Shown here: positions 2,038 through 9,532 of the stretch, in pieces
Position numbering within the stretch: the stretch's first letter is position 1
How the letters are laid out: every line of letters begins with the position of its first letter
Assembly: GCA_021496505.1 (NCBI GenBank)
Contig: CP053031.1
Span: 1,178,001-1,242,000 of the forward strand
Length of the DNA: 64,000 bases
From: Thermoleophilia bacterium SCSIO 60948
Lineage (GTDB): Bacteria > Actinomycetota > Thermoleophilia > Solirubrobacterales > 70-9
Direction of reading: 5' to 3'
Made by a program: the position numbers and the translations under genes
The notes under the pieces: model-generated
What the model was told of the DNA's origin: nothing
Seen by the model: the letters and a program-made list of their open reading frames with translations, nothing else
Databases searched by the model: none

Positions 2038-2110
2038 GCCGCTATCGTCTAGGGGACTAGGACGCCGGATTCTCAGTCCGGAAACCGGGGTTCGAATCCC
2101 CGTAGCGGTG
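2038..2110 (+). tRNA. tRNA-Glu (anticodon CTC)
   Basis: A 73-nt tRNA with acceptor arms GCCGCTA (2038-2044) and TAGCGGT (2103-2109), closed by a G1-U72 wobble pair, and discriminator G. The anticodon stem CCGGA/TCCGG has the loop TTCTCAG, so the anticodon is CTC (2072-2074). The T-arm contains GGTTCGAATCC. Its 3' end is the integration site of the island to the right; the tRNA itself is intact. Confidence 0.95.
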
Positions 2111-2115
2111 CCTCT
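2091..2115 (+). other. Left attachment core (attL) at the 3' end of tRNA-Glu
   Basis: These 25 bases, covering the T-loop to just past the 3' end of tRNA-Glu, recur exactly at 5370-5394. They begin TTCGAATCCCCG and end GCGGTGCCTCT. A duplicated tRNA 3' end is the standard footprint of integration by a tyrosine recombinase. The match ends sharply: a G precedes the left copy and an A the right, and the base after the copies differs (C against G). Confidence 0.88.
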
Positions 2116-2160
2116 CGATCCGGCTTTCTGACGCCGGATTCTGCTTCTTAGAGGCGCTAA

Positions 2161-2404: not shown

Positions 2405-3757
2405 CTAAGAGTCGAGATCGAGGCGTTCCAACGCGGGCAAGTAGCCCTCGGAGAATGTCGGAAATTGAGCCACGGTGTCTTTCAGGACCGCGATCGGAAT
2501 TTGAGCCTTCACGGCAAGGACAGCTTGATGAATCCACTCGCCCGCTAGTGGACCGACCGCCCACGCCCCGACCAACACGCGCCGCTCGCGATCGGCGATC
2601 ACCCCAACCTCGCCGCCTACTCCCTCGCCGAACGTCTCCGTCCTGGCAACGCTCATAAGGTCTGCCCGACCCTCGCTCGTCTTGACGCCATGCTCGCGCG
2701 CCTGAGCCGCTGTCATTCCCACGGCTGCGATCTCGGGGTCGGAGAAGACGACGCGAGGGATCGCCGTGTAGTCGGCCTGGACTGCCTCCCCCGCGATGTC
2801 GTCGCACGCAACACGCGCCTGATACTTCCCGGTATGCGTGAACAGCGAGACGCCAGTCACGTCGCCGATCGCCCAGACACCTTCCGTAACTCGGCAGCGA
2901 TCGTCAACCGGAATCCCCCCGCGCTCGCCTAGCTCCACGCCCAGCACGTCGAGTCCCAGATCGCGGGCGCGAGGCCGTCTGCCGGTCGCGACGATGATCC
3001 GCTCCGCCGAGACACTCGTGCCCGATTCGAGCCGAAGCGTCTGACGACCGGCATCCCCCGTCGCCGCAACCGCCTTCTCTCCGACACGAACCTCGATTCC
3101 GTCTTCCTTCAAGGCGTCCTCGATCAACTCGCTGACGCGTGGCTCCTCTCGATCGATCAGCCGCTCAGCGCCCTGAACGATCGTCACGTCGGCTCCGTAT
3201 CGCCGAAGCATTTGTCCGAGTTCAATCCCGACCGGACCGCCTCCGAGGACAACCACGTCGCGCGGCATTTCCGAGAGAGTGGTCGCCTCTCGGTTGGTCC
3301 AGAAGTCGATCTGATCGAGGCCCTCGATCTGCGGAGCCATCGGATCGCTGCCGGTCGCGACGATGATGCGCTCGCTTGTCAGTCGCTCACCGCCTACCTC
3401 AACGGTGCCGGGGGAGACAAACCGAGCCTCTCCCTTGTAGACGGAGACGCCGCTGTCTTCATAGCCCTTGACCGCGCCCGAGTCATCCAGGTTTCGCACC
3501 ATGTAATCCCGGTACTTGACGATCTCAGCCCACCTTGCCTCCGGCTCCGTTAAGCCCGGCGCGCGTATTGCCTCCGCCCGTACCTCCGGCGGTCGCAGGA
3601 GCGTCTTTGACGGGATGCACGCCCAGTACGCGCACTCGCCGCCGACCATCTCGCGCTCGACCAGCGCCGTGTTCAAGCCGCGTTTTGACAGCCGCGAGGT
3701 CGCAACCTCGCCTGCTGGGCCAGCGCCGATCACGATCGCGTCGTAGTGACGACTCAT
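2405..3757 (-). CDS. FAD-dependent pyridine-nucleotide disulfide oxidoreductase, mercuric-reductase-like (class I)
   Basis: A 450-residue flavoprotein. An N-terminal FAD site VIGAGPAG is followed by the redox-active disulfide motif GGECAYWACIPSK (Cys about 42 and 47), an NAD(P) site with VVLGGGPVGIELG, and an ATGRRPR segment with an AIGDVTG FAD motif. The overall layout is that of dihydrolipoamide dehydrogenase and MerA. It lacks the N-terminal HMA domain and C-terminal vicinal Cys pair of classic MerA, and the usual HTHPTxSE end reads AQFPTFSE, so the catalytic His is replaced. Its start overlaps the upstream stop by 4 nt (ATGA). Context suggests metal or organomercurial reduction; the substrate is unproven. 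Confidence 0.85.
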   Translation of the reverse strand: MSRHYDAIVIGAGPAGEVATSRLSKRGLNTALVEREMVGGECAYWACIPSKTLLRPPEVRAEAIRAPGLTEPEARWAEIVKYRDYMVRNLDDSGAVKGYEDSGVSVYKGEARFVSPGTVEVGGERLTSERIIVATGSDPMAPQIEGLDQIDFWTNREATTLSEMPRDVVVLGGGPVGIELGQMLRRYGADVTIVQGAERLIDREEPRVSELIEDALKEDGIEVRVGEKAVAATGDAGRQTLRLESGTSVSAERIIVATGRRPRARDLGLDVLGVELGERGGIPVDDRCRVTEGVWAIGDVTGVSLFTHTGKYQARVACDDIAGEAVQADYTAIPRVVFSDPEIAAVGMTAAQAREHGVKTSEGRADLMSVARTETFGEGVGGEVGVIADRERRVLVGAWAVGPLAGEWIHQAVLAVKAQIPIAVLKDTVAQFPTFSEGYLPALERLDLDS

Positions 3758-4080
3758 TGCGGCGACTCGGAGCGTTGTCGGCGCAGCGCGTCCACGAGCC
3801 ACGCTTGCGGTGGGATGCCGGACGTTCCCTGCGCGGAGCGATACAGGCGGCACTTCAACCCGAAGTCGCTGCGATCACCCGCACCGGGGTCGATGTCCTC
3901 GCCGTTGATCCGAACACTCGGGGAGCCGAGGAACCCTTCGGCCTCCGCTGCTTCGAGAGTCTCGACGCGGCGAAGCTCGACCTCATCCTCAAAGCCCTCG
4001 CGCTTCAGCGCCGCGCGAAGCTCCGGTAGCAGCGCCTTGTAGCTCGGGCAGCCATCGAAGTAAAGAAGCTCGACCCTCAT
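3754..4080 (-). CDS. Thioredoxin-like Cys protein of the mer-like operon
   Basis: A 108-residue cytosolic protein with a short beta-strand start (MRVELLYFDGCPSY), a single Cys in the place of a thioredoxin active site, and a FLGSPSVRINGEDIDP segment resembling the cis-Pro face of thioredoxin folds. A further Cys lies in GLKCRLY. Small proteins of this kind are, to my recollection, found beside mer and organomercurial genes in actinobacteria. A role in passing a metal or thiol to the next enzyme is inferred. It is coupled by ATGA overlaps on both sides, so it is translated together with its neighbours. Confidence 0.75.
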   Translation of the reverse strand: MRVELLYFDGCPSYKALLPELRAALKREGFEDEVELRRVETLEAAEAEGFLGSPSVRINGEDIDPGAGDRSDFGLKCRLYRSAQGTSGIPPQAWLVDALRRQRSESPQ

Positions 4081-4400
4081 CCGGCCAACCTCGCGAGTAG
4101 ATCGTCCGGGCGCTTTCGGAACTCCTCGGTGCAACAGGGACAGCGACAGAAATGGACCTCCATGTCTCCATGAGTGATCGAGACGGTGAGATGTTTCGGC
4201 TTCTCAGCAAGGCAGGTCGGGCAGACGATCCAGTCTCGAACCTCCGCTAGATACTCGTCCGGCTTTTCGCGAAATGCCTCAACGCAACCGGCGCAGCAGA
4301 ACAACAACTCCTCACCCCGGTATTCGAGACGATCAGCCTCCTCGCGCTTGATCCCGAGCCGCACGAGCGAGCAGCCGCAGGTGGGACAGATAGGACTCAT
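4077..4400 (-). CDS. Cys-rich tandem YHS/TRASH-like metal-binding protein
   Basis: A 107-residue protein made of two similar Cys modules. Module 1 has CPTCGC near the start and FCCAGCVEAFREKPDEYL around residues 34-51. Module 2 has CPTC and FCRCPCCTEEFRKRPDDLL near the end. The aromatic-Cys-(x)2-3-Cys then FxxxPxxY/L pattern is that of YHS/TRASH-type metal-binding domains. No signal peptide or membrane segment is visible, so a cytosolic metal chaperone or sensor role is plausible. It sits between the membrane protein and the thioredoxin-like gene with 4-nt overlaps on both sides. The start has GGAGG just upstream. Confidence 0.72.
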   Translation of the reverse strand: MSPICPTCGCSLVRLGIKREEADRLEYRGEELLFCCAGCVEAFREKPDEYLAEVRDWIVCPTCLAEKPKHLTVSITHGDMEVHFCRCPCCTEEFRKRPDDLLARLAG

Positions 4401-4603
4401 TGGCCTCCGCCGTCCGGTGTCTCCTCACGGCGGCGATAAAGCGCGATCGAGATGAGCAGAAGACCGAGGGCGATAACGGCTCCGGTCCATCCGGCGACCA
4501 CGGCGAGGGAAACGCCGCCGATTACCCCGACCACGAGTGGGAGCACGGCGCAGCAGGCAACAACGGCAGCGGCTGTCCCGGCGACAGCGATCGCGTCCCG
4601 CAT
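4397..4603 (-). CDS. Small MerF/MerT-like membrane protein with Cys-Cys pair
   Basis: A 68-residue protein with two predicted membrane helices. The first contains a vicinal Cys pair in AVVACCAVLPLVVGV, the signature placement of MerT/MerF mercury importers. The second is followed by a basic RRRE tail. The ATG at 4603 is preferred over the GTG at 4609 because GGAGG lies 9 nt before the ATG and the ATG overlaps the regulator's stop (TGATG). No MerP-type second pair is present. Function as a Hg(II) or other soft-metal importer is inferred from the motif and the operon. Confidence 0.75.
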   Translation of the reverse strand: MRDAIAVAGTAAAVVACCAVLPLVVGVIGGVSLAVVAGWTGAVIALGLLLISIALYRRREETPDGGGQ

Positions 4604-4968
4604 CAGCACGGACCTCCGTCCACGGTGGAGCAGGCCGCGACGTGTTCCGCATTGTCGGCGAGCAACTGCCGTCCGAGGTCCACAACCTCAGACACCCGCG
4701 CATCTGCCACCCGGTAGTACACGGTCCGATGCTCACGGCGTGTAATGACGAAGCCGCACCATCGAAGACAAGCGAGATGCTTCGACACCTTCGGCTGCGG
4801 AAGACCGAGTCGCTGCACTAACTCGCCCACCGACGCCTCCCCGTCTTGCAGCGCGGCGATCAGTCGCAGACGTGTCGGGTCGCCCAACGCCCGGAAGTAC
4901 TTTGCCGTCAGGTCCAGCGGGGCGGGTTCTGGCTCGATCCGAAACGGGGCTTCCGTAGCAACGGTCAT
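4603..4968 (-). CDS. ArsR-family metalloregulator of the mer-like operon
   Basis: A 121-residue winged-helix repressor. The recognition region reads LGDPTRLRLIAALQDGEASVGELV followed by LGLPQPKVSKHLACLRWCGFV. Candidate metal ligands are two Cys in HLACLRWCGF and two more at the C-terminus (CSTVDGGPC). ArsR-type proteins replace MerR as the mer regulator in streptomycetes, which fits this operon. The start MTVATEAPF at 4968 is chosen because conserved homology begins there; upstream in-frame sequence looks non-coding. An inverted repeat (4972-5007) directly upstream is a candidate operator. Confidence 0.88.
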   Translation of the reverse strand: MTVATEAPFRIEPEPAPLDLTAKYFRALGDPTRLRLIAALQDGEASVGELVQRLGLPQPKVSKHLACLRWCGFVITRREHRTVYYRVADARVSEVVDLGRQLLADNAEHVAACSTVDGGPC

Positions 4969-4971
4969 ATT

Positions 4972-5007
4972 CGGATTAAAGCATGTGAGGCGCGGGGGCC
5001 TAATCCG
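4972..5007. promoter_or_regulatory. Inverted repeat upstream of the arsR-like gene, candidate operator
   Basis: CGGATTA at 4972-4978 is exactly complementary to TAATCCG at 5001-5007, with arm centres 29 bp apart. The left arm lies 3 bp from the regulator start codon, overlapping where transcription would begin. Autoregulation by the ArsR-like protein is the obvious reading, but ArsR sites usually have a shorter spacer, so this could also be two half-sites. Confidence 0.4.
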
Positions 5008-5082: not shown

Positions 5083-5211
5083 GAGTTCATGGGTCACTCC
5101 ACGATCACCGAGACATTCGACACCTACGGCCATCTCATGCCGGGGAGTCGCGACGAAGTACGGGTCAGGATGGACGCCTACCTCGATCGCAGCGCCGCCG
5201 CTGACGCGTGA
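5083..5211 (+). pseudogene. Truncated tyrosine recombinase (integrase), C-terminal remnant
   Basis: An open stretch of 42 codons starts just after an in-frame TAG (5080-5082) and ends at TGA 5209-5211. It contains FMGHSTITETFDTYGHLMP, the C-terminal box of phage-type integrases: the GH of the LGHxS motif and the nucleophile Tyr of TYGHL are kept. The catalytic Arg, Lys and RHxLR regions are absent upstream in any frame, so the enzyme must be inactive. Its place just inside the right attachment repeat matches an integrase gene next to attP. Confidence 0.8.
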
Positions 5212-5369: not shown

Positions 5370-5394
5370 TTCGAATCCCCGTAGCGGTGCCTCT
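5370..5394 (+). other. Right attachment core (attR), duplicated tRNA-Glu 3' end
   Basis: Exact 25-bp copy of 2091-2115, without the rest of a tRNA upstream, so it is not a second tRNA gene. It marks the right border of the island. The stretch from here to 5512 is non-coding and probably carries the promoter of the secreted protein gene at 5513; TATGTAT at 5494-5500 is a weak -10 candidate. Confidence 0.86.
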
Positions 5395-5512
5395 GGATTA
5401 CTCCTACGACGCCCGGGGCGTACGTGCCCGGTCGGGCGCCCCGCGCCGAGCGCGACTCGCTCGCGGGCAAAGCGGCTGTACTCGGTGCCCACTTATGTAT
5501 TGTGCCCCACCA

Positions 5513-7042
5513 ATGGGGGGTCGAGGACTATCGGTGGGACTGGCTGCGGCTGCTCTCTTTCTGTCTCTGGCGGGGCCGGCGCAGGGTGCGACCTTCTGCG
5601 TCGAAGATGCCGAGTGCGTTGCCGCCGGCGGGACCGCCCAGCCGACCCTCCAGGCCGCCTTCAACGCGGCCAACGCCAACGGCAACGATTCGGATCGGGT
5701 GAAGATCGGGGCGACGACCCTGAACGCCGGGGGTATCGCGAACTCGCTGGTCGAAGTCATCGGTGCGGGTGAGGGTCAGACGACCATCACCGGCACCGGC
5801 AAGATCATCGACCTCAACGTTCGACCGTCGACGATCAAGGACCTGTCGATCGTCATGGACGGGAACGACTCGACGGGGCTGGAGACCGTCGGGCCGGCGG
5901 AGAACGTCACCGTCACCGGCACGAGCTCGATCGTCGCCTGGGGAATCGTGGTCGGGCCCGGGATGAGCAGCGATCTCACGGTCGATCTGGCGATGGACGA
6001 CCTGACCATCGGCTTGGGCATCGTTCCCCCGAACGTCGGCGCGCCGGCCGACGCGGTCGTCGAGGATTCCACGATCAGCGCCCCGATGGCCGGCATGGTC
6101 ACGCTGCCCGGAGCGCAGGCGACCCTTCGCCGCAGCGCGTTCGACGGGATCGCCGGCCTCCAAGCGGGCTCCGGAACGATTCTGGTCGAGGATTCGACGA
6201 TCCGCACCGCGCAGTCGGCGCAGTTTTCTGCGCCGGCGCTCGCAGCCGAGTCATCCTTCATCGGCGCATCGAACCTGACCGCACGAAACCTCACGATCGT
6301 CGGCGACGGGACCGGGACGGGACTCTCCGCGAAGTCGTACTGCAGCAACCAGAACGGCTTTTATCCCGCGACGATCACCGCGAGGAGCACGATCGTTCGA
6401 GGTTTCGCGACAGATCTCCAGCTCACAGGGACGAGTTGCGACACCCTGACGTCAGGGCTTCAGAACGTGCCGGCCACGATCGACATCGCGGATTCGATCT
6501 ACGACCCCGCAAAGGTCACCGAGACAGGGCCAGCATCCGTGAACGCCGGCGCCGGAAACCTCAACGTCGATCCGCTCTTCACCGACCTCGCCGGTGGCGA
6601 CCTGACGCTCTCGCCCGGCTCGCAGGCGATCGAAGCGGGTGATCCGGCAGGACTGGCACCGGGCGAGTCCCCGACCGACCTCGCCGGCGAGCCGCGCGTC
6701 ATCGACAGCGATGGGGACGGCACCGCGATTCGCGACATAGGCGCCTTCGAAGTTGTCCCTGACGTGGAGCGCTCGCTGACGCTCACGTATTCCGCGAAGA
6801 GAAGGCTGTTTCAGGGGAAGCTCGGCGCGCCGGTCGCAGCGTGCCGACTGGACGAGGTGGACGTCTTTCGCGTCAAGGTTGGCCCCGACCAGCTGATCCG
6901 GTCTGTCGAGACGAACGCGAGAGGCAAGTTCTTCATCCCCAAGCGTGCCTCGAAGGGCAAGTACCAGGCGCGGGTCGTGAGCCGCGAGTCCGAAGCCGGA
7001 ACCTGCCTGGCGGCCAAATCCCCGAAGGTCAGGGTCGGTTAG
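5513..7042 (+). CDS. Secreted right-handed beta-helix, choice-of-anchor-Q-type protein
   Basis: A 509-residue exported protein. The N-terminal signal peptide has a leucine/alanine core and a likely cut after AGPAQG. The body is rich in short Thr/Val/Ile-containing rungs (SLVEVIGAGEGQTTITG, TARSTIVRG and similar) typical of right-handed parallel beta-helices. A DLAGEPRVIDSDGDG...DIGAFE segment near residue 400 is the choice-of-anchor-Q signature. A C-terminal beta-sandwich-like domain with a few Cys follows (SAKRRLFQGKLGA onward). ATG 5513 is chosen because the signal peptide starts there; ATG 5495 is in frame too. It lies just outside the island. Probably cell-surface or adhesin-like; ligand unknown. 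Confidence 0.82.
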   Translation: MGGRGLSVGLAAAALFLSLAGPAQGATFCVEDAECVAAGGTAQPTLQAAFNAANANGNDSDRVKIGATTLNAGGIANSLVEVIGAGEGQTTITGTGKIIDLNVRPSTIKDLSIVMDGNDSTGLETVGPAENVTVTGTSSIVAWGIVVGPGMSSDLTVDLAMDDLTIGLGIVPPNVGAPADAVVEDSTISAPMAGMVTLPGAQATLRRSAFDGIAGLQAGSGTILVEDSTIRTAQSAQFSAPALAAESSFIGASNLTARNLTIVGDGTGTGLSAKSYCSNQNGFYPATITARSTIVRGFATDLQLTGTSCDTLTSGLQNVPATIDIADSIYDPAKVTETGPASVNAGAGNLNVDPLFTDLAGGDLTLSPGSQAIEAGDPAGLAPGESPTDLAGEPRVIDSDGDGTAIRDIGAFEVVPDVERSLTLTYSAKRRLFQGKLGAPVAACRLDEVDVFRVKVGPDQLIRSVETNARGKFFIPKRASKGKYQARVVSRESEAGTCLAAKSPKVRVG

Positions 7043-7103
7043 CGCCTGAGATCGGCCTCCCCGCCCGCCTGACCCAGCCCCAGCACGAACCCAGGACACA
7101 ACT

Positions 7104-9532
7104 ATGAGTCTTACGCCCGTCGCGGACCAGCACGCGACCTCGCGCCCCGCTGCGACGACCTCGAACGGCAGGGGGCTCGCCGCCCGAGCTCTGGGGCTTC
7201 TCAGGCCGGGGCGGCCGGCTATGCGCGCCGCCGTCGCCATGCCGCTCACGGCAGCCTTCCTCGTCGCGGCTCAACCGGCCCAGGCCGAGACGATCTCGGT
7301 CCCCTGCGAATCGGGGGCGAGCGCCCTGCGGTCGGCGATCACGAGCGCGAACCAGAACACCTCCGCCACCGAGATCGATCTCGCGCCCGGCTGCACCTAC
7401 ACGTACACCAACGCAGCAGCCGGTCCCGCGCGCTACGCCTTCTGGTACGGCCCGGCAGCGTTGCCGGCGATCGCCAGTCCGGTGACCGTCGTCGGGAACG
7501 GCGCGACGATCGAGCGCGCGGCTGACGCGACGGATCCGTTCCGCCTCTTCTTCGTCGGCGCCGATCCCGTCGATCCCGACACGTTGAACTACGCGACACC
7601 GGGGCCGGGCGCGCTCACCCTGCAGAACCTGACCCTGCGAAACGGCCTCGCCGAGGGCGGCAGCTCCAGCCGGGGCGGTGGCGGTGGCGGCTTCGGAGGA
7701 GCGATCTACAACCAGGGAAGCCTGACCCTCGCCGGAGTCACCGCGACCGGCAACCGCGCGGCCGGCGGAGACAGCGGCCACTACAACGACGACGGCAGCG
7801 CGCACAGCGGTGGCGGGGGTATCGGCACCGACTCGGTGGGGACGACCGGTGGTGGGTTCGGAAGCGAATCTCCCTACTCCGGCACCAGCACCGGCGACCT
7901 CACCAACGAGGACGTGGTGAGCGGCGGCGGCGGGGGTTCCGCACGTCGGAGAACGGCACAGGCAAGGCGGGGGGAGGCCCGGGAACGGGCCTCGCCGGGC
8001 GCGGAGGAAAGCGCATCGACCAGTCCTTCGGCGACGGCGGCAACGGCGGCGGCGGCGGGCGCCATCCCTACTTCGGCGATCTGCCGGGCGGCGATTTCGG
8101 ATTCGGCGGGGTCGGCGGTCTCAACGACCGCACCCAGGCATGGGGCGGTGGCGGCGGTGGTGTCGGCGGCGGCGGAGGAGCCGCGCGCCCTCGCAGCTAC
8201 GTCCCGTCCAACACCAACGACACCAAGGTCGCCGGAGGGGGAGGCGGCTTCGGCGGAGGAGGCGGGGGTGCCTCCGGCGGCTTCGCGGGCGGTCAGGGAG
8301 GCTTCGGCGGCGGCGGCGGTGCGCCGCAGGGCCCGGGCGGCTTCGGCGGCGGCAACGGCGCCTACGTCGACTACTACGAAGGTGGCGGTGGCGCGGGCAT
8401 GGGCGGTGCCGTCTTCAACCACCAGGGGACGGTCAGGATCAGCAACTCGACGCTGGCCGCGAACAGCGCGGAGGGGGGCTCGACCTGGCGCGGCGGCACC
8501 GCCGGACAGGGCCTCGGCGGCGCCATCTTCAACCTCAACGGCGAGGTCGACGTCAGCTTCGCCACGGTCGCGGGCAACAGCGCGCCCGACGGCGGAGCCG
8601 GCATCTACAACCTCGGCTACATGGGCGTCGACACCGGCGCGGGTGGCCACGCCTACATCGCGACCGCCGACATCGACAGCTCGATCGTCCACGACGCTGC
8701 GAGCCAGGACGTGGCCTCGAACGCGCCCACCACCGTGGCGAACGGCGCCGGCAACACCGCCCCGTCTCGCGTCGACTTCGGCGGCTCCGACATCGTTCAA
8801 TCCGTGGCCGCCGTGGGAACCGGCACGACCACGGGCGCTCCGATGGCAGCGGACCCCCAGCTCAGCCCGTTGGCGGCCAACGGCGGCGACACGTTCACGA
8901 TGGCCATCGGCGGCGCCAGTCCCGCTTTCAACGCCGCCGGCGCCACCTGCGCGCCGGCGACCGACCAGCGAGCCACCCCGCGGCCCCAATTCGGGGCCTG
9001 CGACGTCGGCGCCTTCGAGCTGGGCACGTCGTCCACGATCTCCGTCCTCAGGTCCGGCAGCGGCGCCGGCAGCGTCACCTCTGACCCGGTCGGGATCGAT
9101 TGCGGCGCGACGTGTAGCGCCGATTACCCGTCAGGTCAGTCGGTGGCGCTCACCGCCACTCCCGAACCGGGCTCTGTGTTCGACCATTGGGACGGCGCCT
9201 GCACCGGGGTCGAAGCGACCTGCACGGTCATGGCGGACGATCTCAACGTCACCGCGGTGTTCGCCGATGTGACCCCGCCTGACACCAAGGTCACCAAGAC
9301 GGTGGTCAACGACAAGAGGCGCACGGCGACCTTCAGGTTCGCGTCGACGGAGCCGGGCTCGACCTTCACCTGCAAGCTCGACGGGCACCCCGCTCGTCCC
9401 TGCACCTCCCCGCGGACCTATGCGAACTTGAAGGTCGGTAGGCATCGTCTCAAGGTCACGGCCGCCGATGGGGCCGGCAACGCCGATCCCACCCCCGCGT
9501 CGAAGCGGTGGAGGATCAGGCCACGTCGCTGA
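7104..9532 (+). pseudogene. Secreted glycine-rich beta-helix protein with InlB-type repeat, frameshifted in a G run
   Basis: The coding signal starts at ATG 7104 (AGGA 7 nt upstream). An N-terminal extension leads into a signal peptide ending PAQAE, then beta-helix sequence (LTLQNLTLRNG, GGAIYNQGSLTLAGV). At the G5 run 7932-7936 the signal moves to another frame and continues to 9532 with GGAVFNHQGTVRISNSTLAANS, an InlB-type repeat (GSGAGSVTSDPVGIDCG) and an Ig-like tail. One extra G would restore an 809-residue protein. The shift sits in a very Gly-rich part, so it may be a real mutation, slippage-prone phase variation, or a sequencing error. Paralogue-like neighbour of the gene at 5513. Confidence 0.8.

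Follow-up and report, generated by a model that had tools for sequence, protein, structure and literature searches.

The path along which Hg(II) is handed over in mercuric reductase (MerA) is a textbook case and comprises NmerA, the C-terminal Cys pair and the active site. Here we describe a cassette of five genes, on the minus strand at positions 4968 to 2405 of a 64,000-nucleotide stretch of DNA (the window) from the actinobacterium Thermoleophilia bacterium SCSIO 60948, that contains neither a mercury(II) reductase nor an organomercurial lyase of known kind and that, judging from the neighbourhoods of its relatives, is very probably a mercury operon as a whole. The host genome is a single contig of 3.42 Mb (CP053031.1), of which the window covers positions 1,178,001 to 1,242,000. 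The cassette encodes an ArsR regulator, a CC-type membrane protein, a tandem YHS/TRASH protein, a DF-family protein and a flavin-dependent oxidoreductase of a clade that was given the label P5 in this analysis.

The ArsR-type mer operons of actinobacteria (the Streptomyces lividans type, as covered in part of PMC3466566) resemble this locus in having an ArsR regulator with Cys pairs and a flavin reductase, and hold relatives both of P5 and of the window's ArsR; however, the window has the TRASH and DF proteins instead of MerA, MerB and MerP. The crenarchaeal operons of Sulfolobus and Metallosphaera, which combine TRASH/MerH with MerA in the portions of PMC3466566 and PMC4500099 that deal with them, share with the window a TRASH protein, an ArsR and a flavin reductase, and share with P5 a Phe at the Tyr605/441 position, whereas their reductase is described there as a true MerA with the Cys pair, and the window has a TRASH tandem along with the DF and CC proteins. 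In MerB neighbourhoods, namely the merB2 region of plasmid pMR68 and the DF-MerB fusions, TRASH or DF is joined to the lyase; in the window, the same partners occur without it. Operons of this type and the fold families are already known, and what appears to be new is the combination lacking both MerA and MerB, together with a clade that is linked to mer genes and is sister to MerA. Searches of the open-access literature, outside which most subscription journals lie, turned up no account of either the P5 clade or this set of genes.

All five open reading frames (ORFs) are intact. The first (P0001, 4603..4968) encodes an ArsR/SmtB-family repressor, assigned by the HTH_metalloreg profile, with a CLRWC pair and a C-terminal Cys. 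It is followed by a CC-type membrane protein of 70 amino acids with MerF-like anatomy (P0002, 4397..4609), recognized as an ORF with a CC..P motif, by the tandem YHS/TRASH protein of metal-binding type (P0003, 4077..4400), assigned by the YHS profile and a two-module fold model, by the thioredoxin-like DF-family (seleno)protein with Cys11 and Cys77 (P0004, 3754..4080), assigned by the NF049942 profile, and by the FAD/NAD(P)H disulfide oxidoreductase of the P5 clade (P0005, 2405..3757), assigned by the Pfam Pyr_redox_2 and dimerisation domains, the tree and the residues. The initial annotation, made from the letters of the window, had listed these same five parts, and each of them except the membrane protein is now backed by a profile. 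The stop of each gene overlaps the start of the next at all four junctions, as TGATG between ArsR and the membrane protein, where an ATG at 4603 overlaps the ArsR stop, and as ATGA at the remaining three, indicative of a single translationally coupled operon. A promoter scan revealed none that fits the consensus. Right at the ArsR start, the window (4968-4990) has a block, CAtATGCT..TAATCCG.ATATG, in common with two of the related loci considered below (L009, upstream of 4427, and L087, upstream of ArsR), and this block is likely to be an operator overlapping a leaderless start; two other loci (L010 and L011) share a different block.

The reductase P0005 matches Pyr_redox_2 with 211 bits and scores below the cut-offs of the models for MerA (TIGR02053; 324.0 bits against 454.45, with 599.3 for a Rhodococcus MerA used as a control) and for lipoamide dehydrogenase (335.1 against 408.8). 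In a tree of 71 rows, from which two long-branch FAD oxidoreductases and E. coli Gor of an earlier quick tree were left out and to which the K-62 MerA was added, the 44 P5-type rows form one clade (support 100/100), and 14 MerA (100/99), 8 lipoamide dehydrogenases (100/99) and 3 mycothione reductases (100/100) each form a clade of their own. P5 and MerA are sister clades (97/81, moderate support that hinges on rooting with the mycothione reductases). Within P5, a subclade of 27 rows (99/94) includes the window, L009-L011, L053 (the same gene as the reductase of L087) and all mer-linked P5 genes in the tree, as well as eight rows with no visible mer link (L055, L061-L064, L066-L068). The host genome encodes a second P5-family enzyme (G000:C1:3048043-3049413; L002, L106), 42% identical, which falls outside the mer-linked subclade and around which a 13.5-kb stretch contains no match to a mer reference.

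Residues were compared between 20 P5 rows (the window, L009-L011, L053-L060, of which L055 is not mer-linked, and eight plasmid rows) and 13 actinobacterial MerA. The CxxxxC motif next to the FAD is present in all rows compared (C42/C47 in P0005), and the N-terminal HMA domain is absent from P0005, so that the initial description of a reductase with CxxxxC and with neither HMA nor a C-terminal Cys pair is borne out. At the site where lipoamide dehydrogenase has His, P0005 has Phe432, the P5 rows have Phe (18) or Tyr (2), and all 13 MerA have Tyr; taken alone, the P5 residues at this 605 position are compatible with archaeal MerA. The loss of this His, which had been singled out in the initial annotation, is thus real but is no departure from MerA; being common to P5 and MerA, it argues neither for nor against MerA-likeness and was dropped as a sign against it. 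In summary, P5 resembles MerA in the FAD/NAD(P)H fold, the CxxxxC motif, a C-terminal site without His and the sister position in the tree, and differs from it by scoring below the cut-off, by lacking the C-terminal Cys pair and the HMA domain, and by replacement of the Hg-site Tyr. Lipoamide dehydrogenase, mycothione reductase and RclA have the same fold and CxxxxC motif as P5 but represent separate clades and keep the catalytic His; the tree, in which P0005 groups with neither lipoamide nor mycothione reductases, and the residues (no C-terminal HP..E) rule out both of the latter identities. That P0005 is a plain MerA is ruled out by the profile cut-off, the residues and the tree. Thus, of the variant mer operon with a MerA-like enzyme proposed initially, the mercury linkage stands, and the enzyme is a member of a separate sister clade rather than a variant of MerA.

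A MerA encoded elsewhere was not detected: neither the window's genome nor G165 nor the host genomes of L009 and L010 (the latter two being metagenome assemblies of unstated completeness) contain a match above the model cut-off, compared with 609.8 bits in the control genome G041. The same holds for MerB in the window's genome, where PF03243 has no match, and the same search was positive in two of three other genomes (G165 and G041). The absence of MerB noted initially therefore extends to the whole genome, while that of MerP applies to the cassette, no genome-wide search for MerP or HMA having been made.

The gene set recurs in other actinobacteria. Three loci were reached with the TRASH protein as the query: L010 has all five genes in the order of the window; in L009, the genes for ArsR, membrane protein, TRASH and DF keep this order and are followed by a rhodanese-CBS gene, and the reductase gene lies upstream in divergent orientation; and L011 has ArsR, TRASH (in a frame that is broken as assembled), DF and the reductase, with no membrane gene found. 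A fourth locus, L087, comes from the window's own family (genome G165) and reads ArsR (70% identical), CC protein, MerB, membrane protein, DF (68%) and reductase (70%). Its MerB (PF03243, 114.7 bits; MerB HTH domain, 42.1) occupies the slot taken by the TRASH protein in the window. Given the proposal that a TRASH scaffold gave rise to MerB (Kaur and Subramanian 2014, as cited in a passage of PMC8261052), this position raises the question of whether the TRASH protein accepts organomercurials. A small membrane-type protein with the C-terminal sequence GCE.TAISN..L.RDDQ.GC, which matched no family over cut-off, is encoded between MerB and DF in L087 (7745-8215) and near the cassette in L010 (3853-4182, minus strand).

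Four of the five components are independently linked to mercury through their relatives; the CC membrane protein is so linked only via L087. In plasmids, relatives of P0005 (49-56% identity), annotated just as 'NAD(P)/FAD-dependent oxidoreductase', are accompanied by an annotated merA in nine of the nine regions read and by merB in six (nine of ten listed records were read; H48, a near-twin of H47, was left out), and two plasmid regions with reductases of about 40% identity have neither gene. Among 20 chromosomal stretches around the best P5 relatives, MerA adjoins P5 in six (L088, L090-L094), five of which also have MerB; all six have an ArsR that is 46-51% like the window's, and five (all but L092) have TlpA and CcdA. 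L087 is the only one of the 20 with MerB but without MerA. More broadly, CcdA together with TlpA or thioredoxin-like genes is found in or near many actinobacterial merA loci with P5 (L088, L090, L091, L093, L094, L045, L047, L048, L049, L083).

For DF, the link is to MerB. A Streptomyces plasmid gene annotated as merB (324 aa) encodes a DF domain (residues 3-95; 53.4 bits, below the cut-off of 70) fused to MerB (195-319; 131.4 bits), and two further plasmid genes of similar size and annotation start with a DF match, as seen without a domain scan. DF also follows a MerB-family gene in Pseudonocardia and in L115, the MerB-DF neighbours lying in L050 and L115. The TRASH protein has one full-length match (43%) among 72,556 plasmid records, directly 3' of merB2 on pMR68 of Pseudomonas K-62; a second match covers 47% of the query in a gene annotated as XdhC. 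According to the relevant part of PMC3737084, pMR68 is a plasmid with proven Hg resistance, and the operon cloned and tested is another cluster than the merB2 region. Together, the merA/merB neighbourhoods, the MerB of L087, the DF-MerB fusion and the pMR68 merB2 region make the link to mercury much stronger than had been claimed.

Among the small proteins, the ArsR P0001 matches HTH_5 (55.4 bits) and NCBIfam HTH_metalloreg (91.5; cut-off 55). The CxxxC pair and the Cys near the C-terminus are present in 19 of 20 rows of the ArsR alignment, including rows beside MerA and MerB, the sole exception being L051, which lies beside arsenic genes and lacks these Cys. The membrane protein P0002 gave no family over cut-off in profile searches (11.3 bits with the MerF model NF033565, against a cut-off of 50). 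Its CC and the following Pro are invariant in the four aligned rows, and its CC..P aligns with that of pMR68 MerF by hhalign without reaching significance (probability 9.6 percent, P 0.0034). P0003 passes the YHS cut-off with one module (PF04945; 33.5 bits against 30.3), and the second is visible in the fold model, built from three sequences, in which two like modules each consist of a hairpin and two helices (pLDDT 89.3, the best of five models, the others reaching 53-63). Foldseek matched this model to the YHS domain of phenol hydroxylases and to a TRASH domain, all with E above 0.001; the Cys pattern is common to the relatives L009, L010 and L008. No relatives of the TRASH protein were found in viral contigs, and L012, a P-type ATPase with YHS domains matched by the TRASH query, was set aside.

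P0004 matches the DF_fam_seleno model (NF049942) with 108.1 bits (cut-off 70), and its fold model is weak (63.9) and at best thioredoxin-like. Cys11 is present in 25 of 25 and Cys77 in 24 of 25 rows of the DF alignment, counts that include the mis-picked rows L031 and L043. In the DF genes of L021, L025, L029, L030 and L033, the Cys11 codon is an in-frame TGA that presumably encodes selenocysteine, which points to Cys11 as the chemically active residue of DF. The family is broad, being represented in 61 of 296 genomes of the phylum. In plasmids of Iamia (L159, 3533-5956) and Leifsonia (L156, 3543-5714), DF occurs in a minimal set with a MerR-type regulator and a different FAD reductase, and these stretches contain no annotated merA or merB; because the reductase is only 26-28% like P0005, they were rejected as DF-P5 pairs. 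Rhodanese and CBS-domain genes lie near DF in five loci (L009, 5629-6297; L050, 6416-7084; L123; L124; L110), four of which have ArsR.

We favour the reading that this is a mobile, ArsR-controlled cassette for detoxification of mercurials that dispenses with MerA and in which P5 reduces Hg(II), and put the probability of both parts together at roughly 0.45. The gene set, its coupling and recurrence, the merA/merB linkage, the clade and the residue losses are observations, to which we add the following inferred steps. The CxxxC pair and C-terminal Cys of ArsR would serve to sense Hg(II), upon which the operon would be released; the CC membrane protein would pass Hg(II) inward, as MerF or MerT would; the tandem YHS/TRASH protein and DF, the latter with Cys11 and Cys77, may hold and relay Hg(II) or an organomercurial; and P5, which has the CxxxxC/FAD core and no metal-grasping arms of its own, would take electrons from NAD(P)H and reduce the protein-delivered Hg(II) to Hg(0). 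The initial suggestion that the TRASH and thioredoxin-like proteins may replace the missing parts for metal hand-over, namely NmerA and the C-terminal Cys pair, is compatible with this anatomy. In favour of the detoxification reading, P5 is sister to MerA and, like it, has no His of the kind that disulfide reductases use. Reduction of Hg(II) by P5 itself is an even bet, because P5 in other loci adjoins a true MerA and no longer has the residues that serve MerA in the uptake of Hg(II).

A number of observations weigh against this reading. The C-terminal vicinal Cys pair is found in none of the 20 P5 subclade rows compared with 13 of 13 MerA, and is conserved in all MerA according to the part of PMC4500099 concerned. 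In column 103 of the Rhodococcus MerA, which by our own reading would be the Hg-site Tyr named in portions of PMC4500099 and PMC3466566, P5 has Gln (16), Ala (3, including P0005) or Val (1), compared with Tyr in 13 of 13 MerA. Most mer-linked P5 genes adjoin a true MerA, so that P5 would be redundant there as an Hg(II) reductase; 13 of the 20 chromosomal P5 stretches (L061, L089, L095-L105), some of them a few kb at most from a contig end, have no match to a MerA or MerB reference, and neither do P5-type enzymes outside the mer-linked subclade. Relatives of the TRASH protein are rare, with 2 of 396 genomes in the phylum encoding one, and one of these two is the host genome itself. Furthermore, DF genes are also found beside arsenic genes (L051), beside copper genes, beside P-type ATPases (L149, L157, L158) and in L151 beside genes with no plain metal tie.

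These neighbourhoods bear on the possibility that the cassette is directed at a thiophilic metal or metalloid other than mercury (Cd/Pb, Cu or As), its mercury links reflecting a shared toolbox. Among named equivalogs, P0001 is closest to the Cd/Pb sensor CmtR (72.3 bits, the second-best match and below the cut-off of 150), DF lies beside arsenic genes in L051 and beside P-type ATPases in L157 and L158, and YHS domains have reportedly been proposed as copper sensors (PMC4626032). However, the cassette of the same family, in which ArsR, DF and P5 are 68-70% identical, contains MerB, an enzyme with known chemistry on organomercurials, and no metal pump, ArsB/ACR3 or ArsC is encoded within the window's cassette. 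We therefore consider a different metal improbable.

A more serious contender keeps the mercury operon and changes the part of P5. Since mer-linked P5 usually lies beside a real MerA, P5 may be an accessory redox enzyme that re-reduces DF, or a small thiol or quinone, while DF and TRASH bind, strip and hold mercury; the outcome would be sequestration rather than volatilization, with MerA or MerB added in other strains. The presence of MerA alongside P5 in 15 mer loci is in line with this possibility, as is the retention in P5 of CxxxxC as the only MerA metal residue among those compared. Of the 22 genomes with both DF and P5-type genes, 4 (G000, G165, G032, G205) have the two no more than 5 kb apart, and DF pairs with another FAD reductase in Iamia. 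Against an accessory role, P5 lacks the His used by disulfide-reducing enzymes; in G165, which has MerB and no MerA, the freed Hg(II) would lack a reducer; and the chromosomal P5-MerA loci L088 and L090-L094 contain no DF match. On balance, we regard an accessory P5 as plausible, at somewhat less than even odds.

The mobility invoked in the detoxification reading comes from the surroundings of the cassette. A tRNA-Glu gene (CTC anticodon; 2038..2112, plus strand; ARAGORN), the presumed integration site, carries at its 3' end an att-like repeat (2091..2119) that matches a second, att-like copy of this end at 5370..5398 in 28 of 29 positions. Between the two copies, only the operon and the C-terminal remnant of a tyrosine recombinase (5089..5211, plus strand; 40 aa; PHROG 1 integrase, E 1.5e-4, profile positions 420-457) were recognized, and the genome contains no further copy of this remnant. 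We infer that the cassette is a small genomic island inserted at tRNA-Glu. A contig of the same genus (L168) has the tRNA-Leu/tRNA-Glu pair; the repeat occurs there once, and nothing in the contig matches the cassette at the nucleotide level. Its downstream DNA does not match that of the window and, for this reason, the contig does not represent a clean empty site. Conceivably, the island is a decayed remnant that confers nothing, given that the integrase is a mere 40-aa stub and that TRASH relatives are rare; but none of the five frames is broken, the genes are coupled and every protein has kept its invariant Cys, which makes decay very improbable. Just before the tRNA-Leu/tRNA-Glu pair, the window encodes a LAGLIDADG_3 homing-endonuclease-like protein (1105-1878; 32.1 bits, cut-off 22.5), and the corresponding spacing in L168 is about 1.1 kb shorter, as if this gene were missing. 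On the other side of the island (5400-9530), large plus-strand frames resemble secreted repeat proteins.

In its strongest form, the detoxification reading would amount to a second biological route to mercury reduction that works without MerA, in which an armless flavoenzyme of the MerA-sister clade is fed Hg(II) by two separate small proteins, the tandem YHS/TRASH protein and the thioredoxin-like DF protein with its one active-site Cys (selenocysteine in some relatives); we consider this less likely than not. If the detoxification reading is true, a sister clade of MerA that lacks every piece of the hand-over path and is the sole candidate reductase in some genomes would imply either that this path has been outsourced to separate proteins or that mercury operons harbour an unrecognized redox function. 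Surveys that count merA would overlook cassettes of this type.

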